Shown piece after piece: positions 20,575-26,465 of a stretch of 64,000 bases of DNA. Position 1 is the first letter of the stretch; each line of letters begins with the position of its first letter. Origin of the DNA: Mameliella sp. MMSF_3455 (GTDB taxonomy: Bacteria > Pseudomonadota > Alphaproteobacteria > Rhodobacterales > Rhodobacteraceae); contig NZ_JASHJL010000002.1 of assembly GCF_030733205.1 (NCBI RefSeq), forward strand, positions 1 through 64,000. Direction: 5' to 3'. The notes under the pieces were generated by a model. The model saw only the letters and a list, made by a program, of their open reading frames with translations, ran no database searches and was not told where the DNA came from. The position numbers and the translations under genes are program-made.

Positions 20575-22128
20575 TCAGTGCTTGAACTTCTTGATCTCAC
20601 CCGTTTTCAGGCGGTCGAGATAGCTGTTCACCTCGCGCTTGACGATCGGCATCAGGAAGTAGAGGCCAATGATGTTGACCACCGCCATCGCAAAGATCGC
20701 CGCATCCGAGAAGTCGATCACCGGGCCAAGGCTGGCCGAGGCGCCGATAATCACGAAGATGCAGAAGATCACCTTGAACACCAGTTCCTTGGTCTTTCCC
20801 TCGCCGAACAGGAAGGTCCAGGCCTTCAGGCCGTAATAGGACCAGCTGATCATGGTCGAGAAGGCAAAGAGGATCACGGCAATCGCCAGGATCGTCGGGA
20901 ACCAGCTGAAGGTGCTGCCAAAGGCCGCCGCCGTCAGACCCACGCCCGAGGTATCGCCGACCGTCTTGATCGCGGTCCCGGCCTCGTTCAGCATGTAATT
21001 GCCCGTCGCCTCGTCGATCATCAACTGCTGGGTGATGATGATCACCAGCGCCGTCATGGTGCAGATCACAACCGTGTCGATGAAAGGTTCCAGCAAGGAC
21101 ACGAAACCCTCGGTGATCGGTTCCTTGGTGCGCACGGCAGAGTGCGCGATGGCCGCCGAGCCGACGCCCGCCTCGTTCGAGAAGGCCGCCCGCTTGAACC
21201 CCTGGATCAGCGCGCCGACCATACCGCCCGCGACGCCCAGCCCGGTAAAGGCACCGGCAAAGATCTGGCCAAAGGCCCAGCCGATCATGTCGGCGTTCAT
21301 GATCAGGATGATCAGCGCCGTGCCGACGTAGATCACCGCCATGAAGGGCACGACCTTTTCCGTCACCGAGGCGATGGACTTCAGCCCGCCGATAATCACG
21401 ACAAAGACGATAGCCGCAAACACCAGACCGGTGATGAAGCCGGGATATTCTCCGACGACGCCCGTGATGGCCTGGTGCGCCTGGTTGGCCTGGAACATGT
21501 TGCCGCCGCCCAGCGACCCCAGGATGCAGAAGATCGAGAAGAGCACCGCAAGGATACCGCCGCCCGGCAGGCCGCGCTCGGCAAAGCCCTTGGTCAGGTA
21601 ATACATCGGGCCGCCCGAAACATGGCCGTCCGCGAACTCGTTTCGGTATTTCACGCCCAGCGTACATTCGGTGAATTTCGACGCCATGCCCATCAGGCCG
21701 GCGAGGATCATCCAGAAGGTTGCCCCCGGGCCGCCGATGCCCACGGCCACCGCGACCCCTGCGATGTTGCCGAGGCCGACCGTGCCGGACAGCGCCGTGG
21801 CCAGCGCCTGGAAGTGGCTGACCTCGCCCGCGTCATCGGGATCGGAATAGTCGCCTTTGACCAGCGCGATGGAATGGGGGAAGGCCCGGAACTGGATGAA
21901 GCCGAAGTAGATGGTGAAAACGGTCGCCGCGATCACCAGCCAGGCGACGATCCAGGGAAAGCTGGTGCCGGGAAAGGGGCTGAAGATAAAGCTCACAAAC
22001 CAGCCGGTAGCGCCGCTGAATATCGCGTTGATTCTTTCGTCGATGGTCTGCTCCTGCGCGGCGGCAGCGCCCGCAAAAAGCAGAAAAGCCGCAGCGGCAA
22101 GCGCCGCACGTTGTGTCAATCTGTTCAT
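20575..22128 (-). CDS. AGCS-family sodium:alanine/glycine symporter
   Basis: This 517-residue membrane protein begins with a cleavable-looking N-terminus (MNRLTQRAALAAAAFLLFAG), followed by about eleven helices. AGCS signatures include the GTVGLGNIAGVAVA motif and GFKRAAFSNEAGVGSAAIAH. It imports small neutral amino acids with Na+. A universal stress protein gene lies 25 bases upstream on the same strand and may be in the same transcript. Confidence 0.93.
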   Translation of the reverse strand: MNRLTQRAALAAAAFLLFAGAAAAQEQTIDERINAIFSGATGWFVSFIFSPFPGTSFPWIVAWLVIAATVFTIYFGFIQFRAFPHSIALVKGDYSDPDDAGEVSHFQALATALSGTVGLGNIAGVAVAVGIGGPGATFWMILAGLMGMASKFTECTLGVKYRNEFADGHVSGGPMYYLTKGFAERGLPGGGILAVLFSIFCILGSLGGGNMFQANQAHQAITGVVGEYPGFITGLVFAAIVFVVIIGGLKSIASVTEKVVPFMAVIYVGTALIILIMNADMIGWAFGQIFAGAFTGLGVAGGMVGALIQGFKRAAFSNEAGVGSAAIAHSAVRTKEPITEGFVSLLEPFIDTVVICTMTALVIIITQQLMIDEATGNYMLNEAGTAIKTVGDTSGVGLTAAAFGSTFSWFPTILAIAVILFAFSTMISWSYYGLKAWTFLFGEGKTKELVFKVIFCIFVIIGASASLGPVIDFSDAAIFAMAVVNIIGLYFLMPIVKREVNSYLDRLKTGEIKKFKH

Positions 22129-22153: not shown

Positions 22154-22588
22154 TCAAGGGACGATGGTGCAGGGCACCGGGGCGGTCTGGACCAGCGATC
22201 CGGCGACGGAACCAAAGACCCGGCTGCCAAAACGGGAATGCCCGTTGCGACCGATGAAGATCTGCGCCGCCTCCATTTTCTCGGCAATCTCGCACAGCGT
22301 GTCGGCGATATGGCCATAGCGCAGAACCGTCTCGACCGGCACGCCCTTGCCCTCGACCGCGGTCTTGGCGGGGGTGATGATCGATTTTTCGGCCCGGTTC
22401 AGTTCTTCCTTGCGGCGCATGTGGCGCTCTTCCAACTCGGTCGGGGTCAGGAAGGAATAGGGCGACCATTCCAGCACATGGGCGATCACAACCATCGCCC
22501 CCTGCGCCGTGGCGCGTTCCATCGCGAAGTCCAGCGCACGCCGCGCCGCCTCGCTGCCGTCATATCCGACGACAAACTTATCGTTCAT
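22154..22588 (-). CDS. Universal stress protein (UspA family)
   Basis: This 144-residue Usp domain begins with FVVGYDGSEAARRALDFA. The ATP-binding signature is GRNGHSRFGSRVFGSVAGSL, matching the G-2x-G-9x-G(S/T) pattern, so it is of the nucleotide-binding type. The start at 22588 removes a long unconserved upstream extension. It sits upstream of the AGCS symporter and divergent from the sulfide oxidoreductase. Confidence 0.9.
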   Translation of the reverse strand: MNDKFVVGYDGSEAARRALDFAMERATAQGAMVVIAHVLEWSPYSFLTPTELEERHMRRKEELNRAEKSIITPAKTAVEGKGVPVETVLRYGHIADTLCEIAEKMEAAQIFIGRNGHSRFGSRVFGSVAGSLVQTAPVPCTIVP

Positions 22589-22791
22589 CTTGAGTGTCCC
22601 TGTTCCGTTTATTCGCCTTATGGCTGAGTAGAGAGTAACAACGGTGTGACAGGGGATTTTCCCGAAAATATGCCAATCGCATGCCGGTTCGACCGAATTT
22701 ACCAATTTTTCGTGCCTTGGGAGAAGCATCTCCCGGTTTTTATGCGGTATGGGGCCGGTTTTCTGCCCTCGGCCTGCGACCGTTTCGCTCA

Positions 22792-22820
22792 TTAAACATT
22801 CTGATAAATGAATGTATAAA
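22792..22820 (+). promoter_or_regulatory. Promoter with SqrR/BigR-type operator (copy 1)
   Basis: TTAAAC (22792-22797) and TATAAA (22815-22820) make a -35/-10 pair with a 17-base spacer. The palindrome ACATTC-N8-GAATGT (22796-22815) fills the spacer, an ideal position for repression. The core ATTC-N8-GAAT matches, from memory, the operator of the sulfide-responsive repressor SqrR. The same core recurs at 24625-24640. Confidence 0.75.
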
Positions 22821-22860
22821 TTTGCATGACCCGATTCCCCGCATGCAGGAGGTGCAAGCC

Positions 22861-24534
22861 TTGGAATTCCGCAAGATCACCGACGACATCACCGTCTCTC
22901 CCCAGATCGCCGCAGTTCACCTGCAAGAGATCGCCGATGCGGGCTATCGCGCCATCATCTGCAACCGCCCGGATGGCGAGGGTGCCGATCAACCGACCTT
23001 TGACGAAATCGCCGACGCGGCAAAGGCCAAGGGGCTGGAGGCTCGCTATCAGCCCGTGACCTCGGGCAAGGTTCGGGACGCGGACGCCAAGGCCTTTGGC
23101 CAGTTGCTGCGCGAGTTGCCCGGCCCGGTCTTTGCCTACTGCCGAACTGGCACGCGGTCAGCGACGCTCTGGTCGCTGAGCCAGGCGAATACGCTGGCCC
23201 CCGCGACGATCCTCGCCGCCACCAAGGGTGCCAGCTATGACATGGCAGGTGTCGTGCGGCGCATCGTGAACGGGGGCAAGACCCCCACGGACACGGGCGG
23301 CGCCAAGTTCGATGTCGTCATCGTGGGCGGCGGCGCGGCCGGGATCGCCGTGGCCTCCAGCCTCAAGGCGCGCAAGCCGGGTCTCGACATCGCCATCCTG
23401 GACCCGGCCGATGTGCACTACTACCAGCCCGGCTGGACGATGGTTGGCGGCGGCGTCTTCGAGGCCGCGACCACGGCCCGCACGATGGGCAGCCTGATCC
23501 CTCAGGGCGTCCACTGGATCAAGTCCGCCGTTGCCGCGTTTGAGCCGGAAAACAACGCCGTGGTGCTCGATGGCTGCCGCGTTGTGAAATATGATAGGCT
23601 GATCGTCTGTCCGGGACTAAAGCTGGACTGGCACGGGGTAGAGGGGCTGGTGGACACGCTGGGCAAGAACGGCGTGACCTCAAACTACCGCTATGACCTG
23701 GCGCCCTACACCTGGGAACTTGTCAGCAAGATGCGAGAAGGGCGTGCGCTCTTCACCCAACCGCCGATGCCGATCAAATGCGCCGGTGCGCCGCAAAAGG
23801 CGATGTATCTTTCCGGCGACCACTGGTTCCGGACCGGGCGGCTGAAGGACATCGACATCCAGTTCATGAACGCGGGCGGAGTGCTGTTTGGGGTCAAGGA
23901 CTATGTTCCGGCGCTGATGGATTACGTCAGGAAGTACGATGCGACGCTGAACTTCTTTCACAACCTGATCGCCGTGGACGGCCCAGCCAAGACGGCGACT
24001 TTCAAGGTGACGAAACCGGACGCAGACCCGACCGAGGTTACGGTCGCGTTCGACATGATGCATGTCTGTCCGCCACAGGTGGCACCGGATTTCATCCGCG
24101 TTTCGCCCTTGGCCGATGCAGCAGGCTGGGTCGATGTCGACCAGGCCACGTTGCGGCACAAGACCTATGACAACATCTGGTCCCTTGGTGACGTCATGAA
24201 TGCCCCCAACGCCAAGACCGCCGCAGCCGCGCGGATGCAGGCGCCCGTGGTGGCCGAGAACATAGTCGCGGACACCCGCGGCCTCAGCCCGCATGCGGTC
24301 TACAATGGCTACGGCTCCTGTCCGTTGACGGTCGAGAAGGGCAAGATCGTTCTGGCCGAGTTCGGCTATGGCGGGGCGCTGCTGCCCTCCTTCCCCAAGT
24401 GGGTGATCGATGGCACCAAGCCGACGCGCGCCGCATGGTTGCTGAAGGAACAGATCCTGCCGCCGGTCTACTGGAAAGCCATGTTGCGCGGGAAAGAGTG
24501 GATGGCCAAGCCGGAAAGCATCTCGGCCGGATAA
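22861..24534 (+). CDS. DUF442 phosphatase-like/sulfurtransferase domain fused to type II sulfide:quinone oxidoreductase
   Basis: This 557-residue fusion starts with a DUF442 domain (1-110; TIGR01244-like) carrying a PTP-like loop with Cys94 in YCRTGTRSA. The FAD-binding domain begins at about 150 with VVIVGGGAAG. SQR type II redox cysteines are Cys307 (IKCAGAPQKAMYL) and Cys487 (GYGSCPLT, before the LAEFGYGG motif). It should oxidise sulfide to persulfide and pass electrons to quinone at the membrane, with the DUF442 domain handling persulfide. The start is TTG 22861: AGGAGGT at 22847-22853 fits it, and an ATG at 22681 would lie upstream of the promoter and operator. ATG 22843 is the alternative. 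Confidence 0.88.
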   Translation: MEFRKITDDITVSPQIAAVHLQEIADAGYRAIICNRPDGEGADQPTFDEIADAAKAKGLEARYQPVTSGKVRDADAKAFGQLLRELPGPVFAYCRTGTRSATLWSLSQANTLAPATILAATKGASYDMAGVVRRIVNGGKTPTDTGGAKFDVVIVGGGAAGIAVASSLKARKPGLDIAILDPADVHYYQPGWTMVGGGVFEAATTARTMGSLIPQGVHWIKSAVAAFEPENNAVVLDGCRVVKYDRLIVCPGLKLDWHGVEGLVDTLGKNGVTSNYRYDLAPYTWELVSKMREGRALFTQPPMPIKCAGAPQKAMYLSGDHWFRTGRLKDIDIQFMNAGGVLFGVKDYVPALMDYVRKYDATLNFFHNLIAVDGPAKTATFKVTKPDADPTEVTVAFDMMHVCPPQVAPDFIRVSPLADAAGWVDVDQATLRHKTYDNIWSLGDVMNAPNAKTAAAARMQAPVVAENIVADTRGLSPHAVYNGYGSCPLTVEKGKIVLAEFGYGGALLPSFPKWVIDGTKPTRAAWLLKEQILPPVYWKAMLRGKEWMAKPESISAG

Positions 24535-24544
24535 GTTCAAGGCT

Positions 24545-24579
24545 GCCATGGGCCGGGGCGAGACGCGACGGCCCATGGC
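24545..24579 (+). terminator. Hairpin between the SQR fusion and sulP
   Basis: GCCATGGGCCG (24545-24555) and CGGCCCATGGC (24569-24579) form a perfect 11-bp stem with a 13-base loop, just after the SQR stop. No T-run follows. It separates two units that each have their own operator. Confidence 0.5.
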
Positions 24580-24618
24580 TCGCTGCCGCACAGCTTGCTG
24601 GCGCACGCGCGCAGCCCC

Positions 24619-24649
24619 TTTTAAATTCTGATTTGTGAATATATATGAT
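24619..24649 (+). promoter_or_regulatory. Promoter with SqrR/BigR-type operator (copy 2)
   Basis: ATTC (24625-24628), TGATTTGT and GAAT (24637-24640) repeat the ATTC-N8-GAAT core found upstream of the SQR fusion. The two copies also share TGAT after ATTC, TGAAT, and a following TATA stretch. A -10 of TATATG (24642-24647) or TATGAT (24644-24649) fits by analogy; the -35 (TTTTAA, 24619-24624) is weak. Confidence 0.65.
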
Positions 24650-24698: not shown

Positions 24699-26465
24699 AT
24701 GAAGCTCCCACGTCAATTGACCCGCTACCTGCCCATTCTCGACTGGGCGCGGACCTATGATCGCGAAACCGCCTCTGCCGATGGACTGGCGGCGGTGATC
24801 GTGACCATCATGCTGATCCCGCAATCGCTGGCCTATGCCTTGCTCGCGGGCCTGCCTGCCGAGATGGGCCTGTACGCGTCGATCCTGCCGCTGGTGGCCT
24901 ACGCCATCTTCGGCACCAGCCGCGCGCTGGCCGTCGGCCCCGTGGCGGTCGTTTCGCTGATGACCGCCGCCGCCATCGGCAACCTTGGCCTGTCCGACCC
25001 GGTGGACATCGCCTTGGCCGCCGGCACGTTGGCCTTCATCTCTGGCGTGATCCTGTCCTTGCTGGGGCTCTTTCGCCTCGGTTTCCTGGCCAATTTCCTG
25101 TCGCACCCGGTCATCGCCGGGTTCATCACCGCATCGGGTGTCCTGATTGCCGCCTCGCAGCTGAAGCACATCTTCGGCATCGACATGCACGGGCACACCC
25201 TGACCGAGTTGATGCGCACCATGTTCGCGGAACTGGGGAACACAAACGGCTATACCTTCGCCCTGGGGCTGGCGGCGCTGGCCTTCCTGTTCTGGGTCCG
25301 CAAGGGGCTGAAGCCGCTGCTACTGAAGAAGGGCGTTCCGCCAAAACTGGCCGACGTCCTGACCAAGGCCGGGCCGGTGGCTGCCGTTGTCGTCACCACG
25401 CTGGCCACCTGGGTGTTTGGCCTGTCGCATGCCGGTGTCAAAATTGTCGGAGAGATCCCGACGGGCCTGCCGCCGCTGACCGCACCCAGCTTTTCGCCCG
25501 CCCTCTGGAATGAACTCTTCATGTCCGCGCTGCTGATCTCGATCATCGGCTTCGTTGAGTCCGTATCCGTCGCGCAGACGCTGGCCGCCAAGCGTCGCCA
25601 GCGCATCTCGCCCGACCAGGAACTGATCGGCCTCGGCACCTCGAACATCGCCTCGGCGGTCTCGGGCGGGTTTCCGGTAACGGGCGGTTTCTCGCGCTCT
25701 GTGGTGAACTTCGACGCAGGCGCCGCCACGCCAGCGGCAGGCGCCTATACTGCGGTGGGCATCGCCGTTGCGACCCTGCTGCTGACGCCCCTGCTCTTCT
25801 TCCTGCCCAAGGCGACGCTGGCCGCGACGATCATCGTTGCCGTCCTCAGCCTTGTCGATTTCTCGATCCTCAAGAAGGCCTGGGACTATTCCAAGGTCGA
25901 TTTTGCCGCCGTCTTTGCCACCATCGTCCTGACCCTTGGGTTCGGCGTGGAACTGGGCGTTTCAGCCGGTGTGCTGATCTCGATCGGGCTGCATCTGTAC
26001 AAGACATCGCGCCCGCATGTCGCAGAGGTCGGGCTGGTGCCCCAGACCCACCATTTCCGCAATATCAAGCGCCACGAGGTCGAGACCCTGCCGCACCTCG
26101 TGACGCTGCGCGTGGACGAAAGCCTGTATTTCGCCAATGCCCGCTTCCTCGAGGACTACGTTTTGGGCCGCGTCACATGTGACGAGCCGATCGAACATGT
26201 CGTGCTGATGTTCCCGGCGGTCAACGAGGTCGACATGAGCGCGCTGGAAACGCTGGAGGAACTGAATCGGCGCCTGTCGGAAATGGGCATCCAGCTCCAT
26301 CTGTCCGAGGTCAAGGGACCGGTGATGGACCGGCTGAAACGGTCGCATTTCCTGGATGAACTGACCGGCAAGGTGTTTCTGTCGCAATACGATGCCTGGC
26401 TGGCCCTGCAAGAGCCCGCACCCAAACCTGAAAAGGCGTCAGCCGCCGAGGTAGACGCGGCCTGA
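24699..26465 (+). CDS. SulP-family anion permease with STAS domain
   Basis: This 588-residue transporter has a SulP membrane domain (about 20-420, with MLIPQSLAYALLAGLP and GGFPVTGGFSRSVVNFDAGA). A cytoplasmic STAS domain covers about 460-565 (EVDMSALETLEELNRRL). Family members move sulfate, bicarbonate or other anions. The shared operator with the SQR fusion suggests movement of a product of sulfide oxidation such as sulfite or sulfate; that is inference. ATG 24699 is used because 24645 falls in the promoter. The 3' end overlaps the convergent phosphatase by 27 bases. Confidence 0.9.
   Translation: MKLPRQLTRYLPILDWARTYDRETASADGLAAVIVTIMLIPQSLAYALLAGLPAEMGLYASILPLVAYAIFGTSRALAVGPVAVVSLMTAAAIGNLGLSDPVDIALAAGTLAFISGVILSLLGLFRLGFLANFLSHPVIAGFITASGVLIAASQLKHIFGIDMHGHTLTELMRTMFAELGNTNGYTFALGLAALAFLFWVRKGLKPLLLKKGVPPKLADVLTKAGPVAAVVVTTLATWVFGLSHAGVKIVGEIPTGLPPLTAPSFSPALWNELFMSALLISIIGFVESVSVAQTLAAKRRQRISPDQELIGLGTSNIASAVSGGFPVTGGFSRSVVNFDAGAATPAAGAYTAVGIAVATLLLTPLLFFLPKATLAATIIVAVLSLVDFSILKKAWDYSKVDFAAVFATIVLTLGFGVELGVSAGVLISIGLHLYKTSRPHVAEVGLVPQTHHFRNIKRHEVETLPHLVTLRVDESLYFANARFLEDYVLGRVTCDEPIEHVVLMFPAVNEVDMSALETLEELNRRLSEMGIQLHLSEVKGPVMDRLKRSHFLDELTGKVFLSQYDAWLALQEPAPKPEKASAAEVDAA

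Follow-up and report, generated by a model that had tools for sequence, protein, structure and literature searches.

Two ATTC-N8-GAAT sites upstream of DUF442-SQR fusion and SulP genes in Mameliella: probable operators of a persulfide-responsive ArsR repressor, with a TsoY-family gene as a probable member of the same regulon

In a 64,000-nucleotide stretch of the Mameliella sp. MMSF_3455 genome (hereafter the window), an earlier note had picked out by eye two palindromes of the form ATTC-N8-GAAT, one before a gene fusing a DUF442 domain to a sulfide:quinone oxidoreductase (SQR) and one before a SulP-family transporter gene. Do these palindromes belong to a persulfide-responsive repressor of the SqrR type, and if so, to which one and together with which other genes? 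ATTC-N8-GAAT is indeed the site deduced for SqrR of Rhodobacter capsulatus, as the available text of PMC9774250 states, and the sequence evidence favours reading the pair as operators of the SqrR type, one preceding a gene for sulfide oxidation and the other a gene for an anion transporter. We consider it very probable that both serve as operators for a dithiol ArsR repressor from the SqrR/SoxR/BigR group, which would release the fusion and SulP genes on sulfide, and that a TsoY-family gene belongs to the same regulon.

An exact search found the two sites where the note had placed them, and they are the only two in the window (Table 1). Each fills the gap between a −35-like and a −10-like hexamer, before the fusion and before SulP. 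The position described for copy 1, between TTAAAC and TATAAA with a 17-base spacer, is correct as read in the sequence, and copy 2 has the same layout (TTTTAA, site, TATATG). A generic promoter scan called only a variant of copy 2, with TATGAT two bases further on, and nothing at copy 1. GC content is 28% around copy 1 and 25% around copy 2, against 65% in the window.

Table 1. Features of the fusion-SulP locus (positions in the window).
Feature	Position	Strand	Basis
−35-like hexamer TTAAAC, promoter 1	22792..22797	+	read in sequence
Operator 1, ATTC-TGATAAAT-GAAT, full site ATTCTGATAAATGAAT	22798..22813	+	exact match
−10-like hexamer TATAAA, promoter 1	22815..22820	+	read in sequence
Ribosome-binding site GGAGGT	22848..22853	+	read in sequence; kept in Mameliella alba
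DUF442 (TIGR01244) domain fused to type II-like sulfide:quinone oxidoreductase, 557 aa, TTG start	22861..24534	+	profile and structure-relative searches
9-bp perfect inverted repeat CCATGGGCC-N15-GGCCCATGG, fusion-SulP gap	24546..24578	+	read in sequence
−35-like hexamer TTTTAA, promoter 2	24619..24624	+	read in sequence
Operator 2, ATTC-TGATTTGT-GAAT, full site ATTCTGATTTGTGAAT	24625..24640	+	exact match
−10-like hexamer TATATG, promoter 2	24642..24647	+	read in sequence
SulP-family anion transporter with STAS domain, start ATG 24699	24699..26465	+	profile searches

The fusion gene most likely starts at the TTG behind GGAGGT: the matches of relatives begin at its residue, and two near relatives have ATG there. 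An upstream ATG proposed by the mechanical ORF list was rejected because the promoter would then fall inside the gene. The product scored 117.7 bits with TIGR01244 (cut-off 85.85) and also matched BLH_phosphatase; for its SQR half, human SQOR is the best solved relative both by sequence (323 bits) and by fold. The AlphaFold model has a mean pLDDT of 77.5, with residues 185-208, 341-349 and most of 488-547 below 50, and its best fold matches are SQR structures. The SulP product reached 442.8 bits with TIGR00815 (cut-off 380.45) and matched Sulfate_transp and STAS, the latter at 57.2 bits; these searches were run on the frame from 24645, the start being taken as 24699. It probably moves an oxidised sulfur anion, and export as the direction is a guess. 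The inverted repeat between the two genes is at most a possible transcription end; it has no T-run and was not called by a terminator scan. Divergent from the fusion, on the minus strand, lies a universal stress protein gene (22154-22600), followed by a sodium:alanine symporter gene (20575-22128) on the same strand.

Taken as a bare count, two sites in the window are near chance: dinucleotide shuffles of the window gave a mean of 0.51 sites, and 10 of 100 shuffles reached two or more. The whole-genome motif search that the earlier note had proposed gave 32 exact sites in 5.71 Mb, where the shuffle expectation of the window, scaled to the genome, is about 45; there is no overall enrichment, and crude gene calling places 18 of the 30 sites outside the window within an ORF. 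What sets the two copies apart from other genome sites is the sequence RTATA directly after GAAT, found at three places in this genome, namely at both copies and at one site before the TsoY-family gene on contig C30.

It is the comparison of relatives, not the count, that settles the sites as real, since the palindrome is kept while its spacer drifts. The fusion was searched in 295 genomes of the family, giving 121 matches at threshold, many of them via the SQR half alone, and for the 40 best relatives the neighbouring sequence was taken, oriented to the fusion strand. Of these, 12 had an exact site ahead of the fusion at a distance of at most 330 bp, and 8 had one in the gap between fusion and SulP. 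The inner eight bases change between genomes, ATTC and GAAT are constant, and TATA-like bases follow in most of these 20 sites. The 28 close orthologues without an exact fusion operator count against the operator reading. In a named set, made of the best 80 of 585 loci and overlapping with the 40 relatives, 22 loci carried the upstream site, 17 of which also had a gap site before SulP. In Mameliella alba, the nearest named relative (fusion protein 96% identical), both sites persist, their inner bases are altered and TTAAAC is absent. For the shared ATTC-TGAT-N4-GAAT that the earlier note had described, ATTC and GAAT are thus upheld, and TGAT was rejected as an operator part because the inner eight bases differ between relatives; the layout of promoter 1 stands as described for this genome, TTAAAC being lost in M. 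alba. At spacing 8, ATTC leads the 256 possible half-sites upstream of the fusion; when the spacing is left free, GTGG-N4 is as frequent as ATTC-N8 (12 each). In the fusion-SulP gap several half-sites are commoner than ATTC, an excess that is probably due to shared coding sequence in that stretch.

The loci of the 40 relatives, whose upstream genes were assigned by homology search, fell into two ARRANGEMENTS: 12 have the fusion operator, 23 an upstream dioxygenase gene, five neither and none both (Fisher p 1e-6). The dioxygenase gene, found in 23 of the 28 operator-less loci, encodes a metallo-beta-lactamase that resembles the dioxygenase half of Blh most closely; the gene ends at most 1.4 kb upstream and runs in the same direction as the fusion. 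YeeE-type and DUF6691 genes lie upstream in 16 of these 28 loci, and a Crp/Fnr-type gene, also in the same direction, in 14. None of the four genes (dioxygenase, YeeE-type, DUF6691, Crp/Fnr-type) was found upstream in the 12 operator-bearing loci. Two of the five loci with neither operator nor dioxygenase carry ATTG-N8-GAAT before the fusion. Operator and upstream dioxygenase gene look like two alternative controls rather than a chance distribution, one enzyme gene standing in two mutually excluding arrangements among close relatives. A frequent alternative order is Crp/Fnr-type regulator, YeeE-type, DUF6691, metallo-beta-lactamase dioxygenase, fusion and SulP (L086, L083, L072 and others), genes which would form one operon. 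The own genome has a dioxygenase homologue (65% identical) at C58:13378-14241, beside distant YeeE/DUF6691 genes; contig C58 carries no exact operator, and immediately before this homologue there are two overlapping sites with one mismatch each (L225, around 2766-2787).

Across the 295 genomes, the extended pattern ATTC-N8-GAAT-RTATA occurred at 89 places in 67 genomes, and a reversed control pattern, which does not keep dinucleotide content, 6 times. The neighbourhoods of 69 places were read as DNA, and the coordinates of the remaining 20 matched them to TsoY, fusion or SulP genes already located, gene calling being crude. Sulfur genes adjoin 55 of the 89 places: SulP (17), TsoY (15), the fusion (5), rhodanese (5), YeeE (5), SoxB (3), SQR/flavocytochrome-like (3) and dioxygenase (2). 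Three further places adjoin thioredoxin 2 genes and three uvrA alone; 28 are without assignment, among them places at peroxiredoxin, HlyD and copper-ATPase-like genes (the last by sequence reading). A single-domain rhodanese gene with the operator-promoter form is present in L115, L131, L322, L331 and L343, with uvrA divergent in four of the five; SqrR is known to control a rhodanese gene, according to the available text of PMC9995734. In 12 genomes with a SulP site of the pattern no full-length fusion was found, so that SulP seems to be a target independently of the fusion. Of the 15 TsoY places, 8 have RTATA at the gene-distal end of the site, which counts against the operator reading. The two-promoter sulfide regulon of the earlier note is therefore borne out as to SqrR-type operators before both genes and too narrow in its limit to two promoters, since the TsoY-family gene, and perhaps sox genes, have to be added.

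At TsoY genes the contrast with controls is strong. The C30 gene product falls in the TsoY family (NF047644, 507.5 bits, cut-off 150), and two exact operators 25 bp apart (C30:75841-75881) stand directly before its gene (C30:75940-77076). TsoY was found in 83 of the 295 genomes; with the fragmentary genes of G147 and G216 left out, 81 usable genes remained, the own one included. Of the 81, 53 carry an exact operator no further than about 100 bp from the estimated start, 7 a one-mismatch site within the stretch read and 21 neither. By comparison, no more than 3 of the 81 had ATTC at any one other spacing from 4 to 13, permuted half-sites never gave more than 1, and the remaining pairings of half-site and spacing did not go beyond 20. 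Two or more sites precede 23 of the genes (the own and those of 22 of 80 relatives), 24-26 bp apart in 22 of the 23. Among 385 genomes of the class, TsoY occurred in two outside the family, one with an exact site before it and the other with a one-mismatch site only. The own protein has a single cysteine, Cys336, which lies within CPFV and is conserved in all 31 aligned proteins; a selenoprotein form of TsoY with a UxxV motif is listed in the available part of PMC13188914, and CPFV would fit this motif. Pfam and PDB searches with TsoY gave nothing useful, and we found no assigned function for it; the regulon supplies a testable role for this (seleno)protein family. The short operator spotted by eye would mark a real sulfur regulon, recurring across many genera of one alphaproteobacterial family.

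Which repressor reads these sites? A BigR-model search of the own genome gave five ArsR-like matches, none on the window's contig and none over the cut-off. The search for an SqrR/BigR homologue that had been suggested yielded two good candidates with both cysteines, the C101 protein and SoxR of the sox cluster; neither is encoded on the window's contig, in agreement with the placing of the repressor outside the window. The nearest solved relative of the C101 protein is R. capsulatus SqrR (64.5% identical), and its Cys38 and Cys104 align with the SqrR sensor cysteines C41 and C107 (numbering from the available text of PMC9995734). It is a winged-helix protein of the ArsR kind, with 38.4 bits for HTH_5 (cut-off 22) and HTH_metalloreg over its cut-off. 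SoxR is 61.1% identical to SqrR and also has both sensor cysteines. With the BigR equivalog NF040642 (cut-off 155 bits) the C101 protein scored 108.1 and SoxR 94.3, both below the cut-off. Exact sites lie before soxX and soxC (C11:141563 and C11:145740; L021), in the cluster that also encodes SoxR. In a quick tree of 84 rows, built on few columns and with long branches and many open forks, the C101 protein fell in a set of 36 (support 81) and SqrR on the SoxR side (support 88).

For the distribution among genomes, a repressor was classed as C101 type at 68% identity or more and 136 bits or more, our own cut, which omits borderline proteins (e.g. G125, G222, G292). The C101 type occurs in 11 of the 12 relatives with the fusion operator vs 6 of the 28 without (Fisher p 5e-5). 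On the fusion tree this comes down to one independent pair on supported branches (sign test p 1), so the co-occurrence is an association and not a test. At TsoY, the C101 type was present in 20 and absent in 2 genomes with two or more sites, vs 15 and 43 with fewer (p 1e-7, uncorrected for kinship). Counting against C101, 20 genomes carry a single TsoY site but lack the C101 type. The 16 kb surrounding the gene of the C101 repressor contain no site with at most one mismatch, hence no sign of autoregulation. The simplest reading is that both repressor types may recognise the same kind of operator; granted a dithiol ArsR repressor, we think it rather likely that the C101 protein is the one acting here.

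The sites with their conservation and layout, the repressor genes with their cysteines and the recurrence before sulfur genes can be seen in the sequences. The transport direction is inferred, and binding, repression and release by persulfide are taken over by analogy from SqrR, SoxR and BigR. By this analogy, the reduced dimer would sit between the −35 and −10 elements when sulfide is absent and block RNA polymerase at both promoters. Once sulfide enters, persulfides would bridge the two sensor cysteines and the repressor would leave. The DUF442-SQR fusion and SulP would then be made, the former oxidising sulfide to sulfane sulfur and the latter probably moving the oxidised anion. The gene of the TsoY-family membrane protein would respond as part of the same regulon, and SoxR of the sox cluster may be able to read the same kind of site.

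The closest competitor keeps the operators and changes their owner: SoxR, not the C101-type protein, would repress the two promoters, which would then belong to a sox regulon for thiosulfate and sulfide. In its favour, the gene for SoxR lies next to sox genes with two exact sites before soxX and soxC, the identity of SoxR to SqrR is close to that of C101, and SqrR itself lies on its side of the tree; several of the 20 genomes with single TsoY operators and no C101 type have a SoxR-type protein as their sole match (G007, G126, G142, G229). Yet the two sox sites of the own genome have no RTATA after them, and a SoxR-side protein is mostly present where the fusion operator is missing too (10 of 11 relatives by SoxR search, 10 of 17 others by tree), whereas nearly all operator-bearing relatives hold the C101 type. 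Moreover, G098 has both operators with only the C101 type shown (genome 84% complete), and G076, 100% complete, has tandem TsoY operators with only the C101 type. We regard control by SoxR instead of C101 as possible but doubtful.

Two more distant explanations give up the persulfide repressor, and each appears very improbable to us. One takes the sites for chance AT-rich palindromes or core promoter, the genes being under some other control, such as that of a Crp/Fnr-type regulator, which may apply to the larger clusters of relatives. The shuffles, the unenriched genome count and the co-directional Crp/Fnr-type gene of 14 operator-less loci are in its favour; although the bare window count allows a chance origin, we rejected it on conservation together with the spacing and permutation controls, the same palindrome with a varying spacer being found at the same place in many genera, with strong contrasts at TsoY genes and no relative combining operator and upstream dioxygenase gene. 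The other assigns the sites to a dyad-binding regulator with an ATTC-N8-GAAT preference but unrelated to persulfide sensing, as the unassigned places and those at copper-ATPase-like, peroxiredoxin or HlyD genes might suggest; against it stand the sulfur genes at most pattern places and the finding that each of the 80 TsoY genomes searched yielded one or more matches to the C101 repressor at E 1e-15 or better, although some were weak.

With human SQOR residue numbers taken from the available text of PMC12589024 and placed on the alignment by us, human Cys201 corresponds to Cys307 of the fusion, and the second catalytic cysteine, Cys379, to Val445. The SQR half therefore has one of the two catalytic cysteines of a type II SQR, and in 80 of 80 named relatives the position of the second reads Val or Ala by motif. 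The same source describes the trisulfide between Cys201 and Cys379 as essential in the human enzyme. This SQR subfamily is unlikely to follow the human two-cysteine cycle. Cys94 (in the DUF442 domain), Cys239, Cys307 and Cys487 are shared by all 41 fusion sequences. The DUF442 half has the marks of a sulfurtransferase, a score over the cut-off and the conserved Cys94 in a CRTGTR loop, and the DUF442 domain of Blh is a demonstrated sulfurtransferase in the available text of PMC5823870. From Val445, the invariant cysteines and this activity of Blh, it is therefore plausible that Cys94 stands in as sulfur acceptor for the missing SQR cysteine. A tentative joint reading, which we put forward as a speculation, goes further: TsoY would be a core persulfide-response protein in this bacterial family, the paired operators of many of its genes would be read cooperatively by a separate C101-type clade, Cys336, at a seeming selenocysteine place, would handle sulfane sulfur at the membrane, and Cys94 would take sulfur straight from Cys307, hence the loss of the SQR cysteine. 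If this held, sulfide would be turned into carried persulfide within one protein, the fusion.

As for known systems, the nearest is the SqrR regulon of R. capsulatus, where, in the available texts of PMC9995734 and PMC9774250, an ArsR dithiol repressor controls sqr and a rhodanese gene. Repressor type and site are the same here, and rhodanese genes with the site occur in five relatives. In contrast, the SQR is fused to DUF442 and has no second catalytic cysteine, SulP and TsoY are added, and the favoured repressor (C101) stands apart from SqrR in a weakly supported tree. In Hyphomicrobium denitrificans, SoxR and sHdrR are two related sulfane-sulfur-responsive ArsR repressors that share at least one binding region and control sulfur oxidation genes (available parts of PMC10451225 and PMC12423496). 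Two related candidate repressors are likewise found in one genome here; the second one, however, is of the C101 type, a class made by sequence that does not imply identity with sHdrR. BigR operons, described in the accessible portions of PMC5823870 (Xylella/Agrobacterium) and PMC7315123 (Acinetobacter), also have a dithiol ArsR repressor, and the Acinetobacter operon comprises YeeE/YedE transporters and a persulfide dioxygenase. They share with our locus the repressor type and the DUF442 domain, whose sulfurtransferase activity was shown in Blh, but Blh joins DUF442 to a dioxygenase and the present fusion joins it to an SQR, and both own repressors score below the BigR cut-off. The own C30 member of the TsoY (seleno)protein family differs in being a cysteine form, not a selenoprotein, and is here linked to a persulfide-type operator. 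We did not find this gene set described in the literature covered, which leaves out most subscription journals. The regulation is of a known kind, and what is new, as far as our searches went, lies in the members of the regulon, above all TsoY, in the mutually excluding arrangements and in the altered SQR site.
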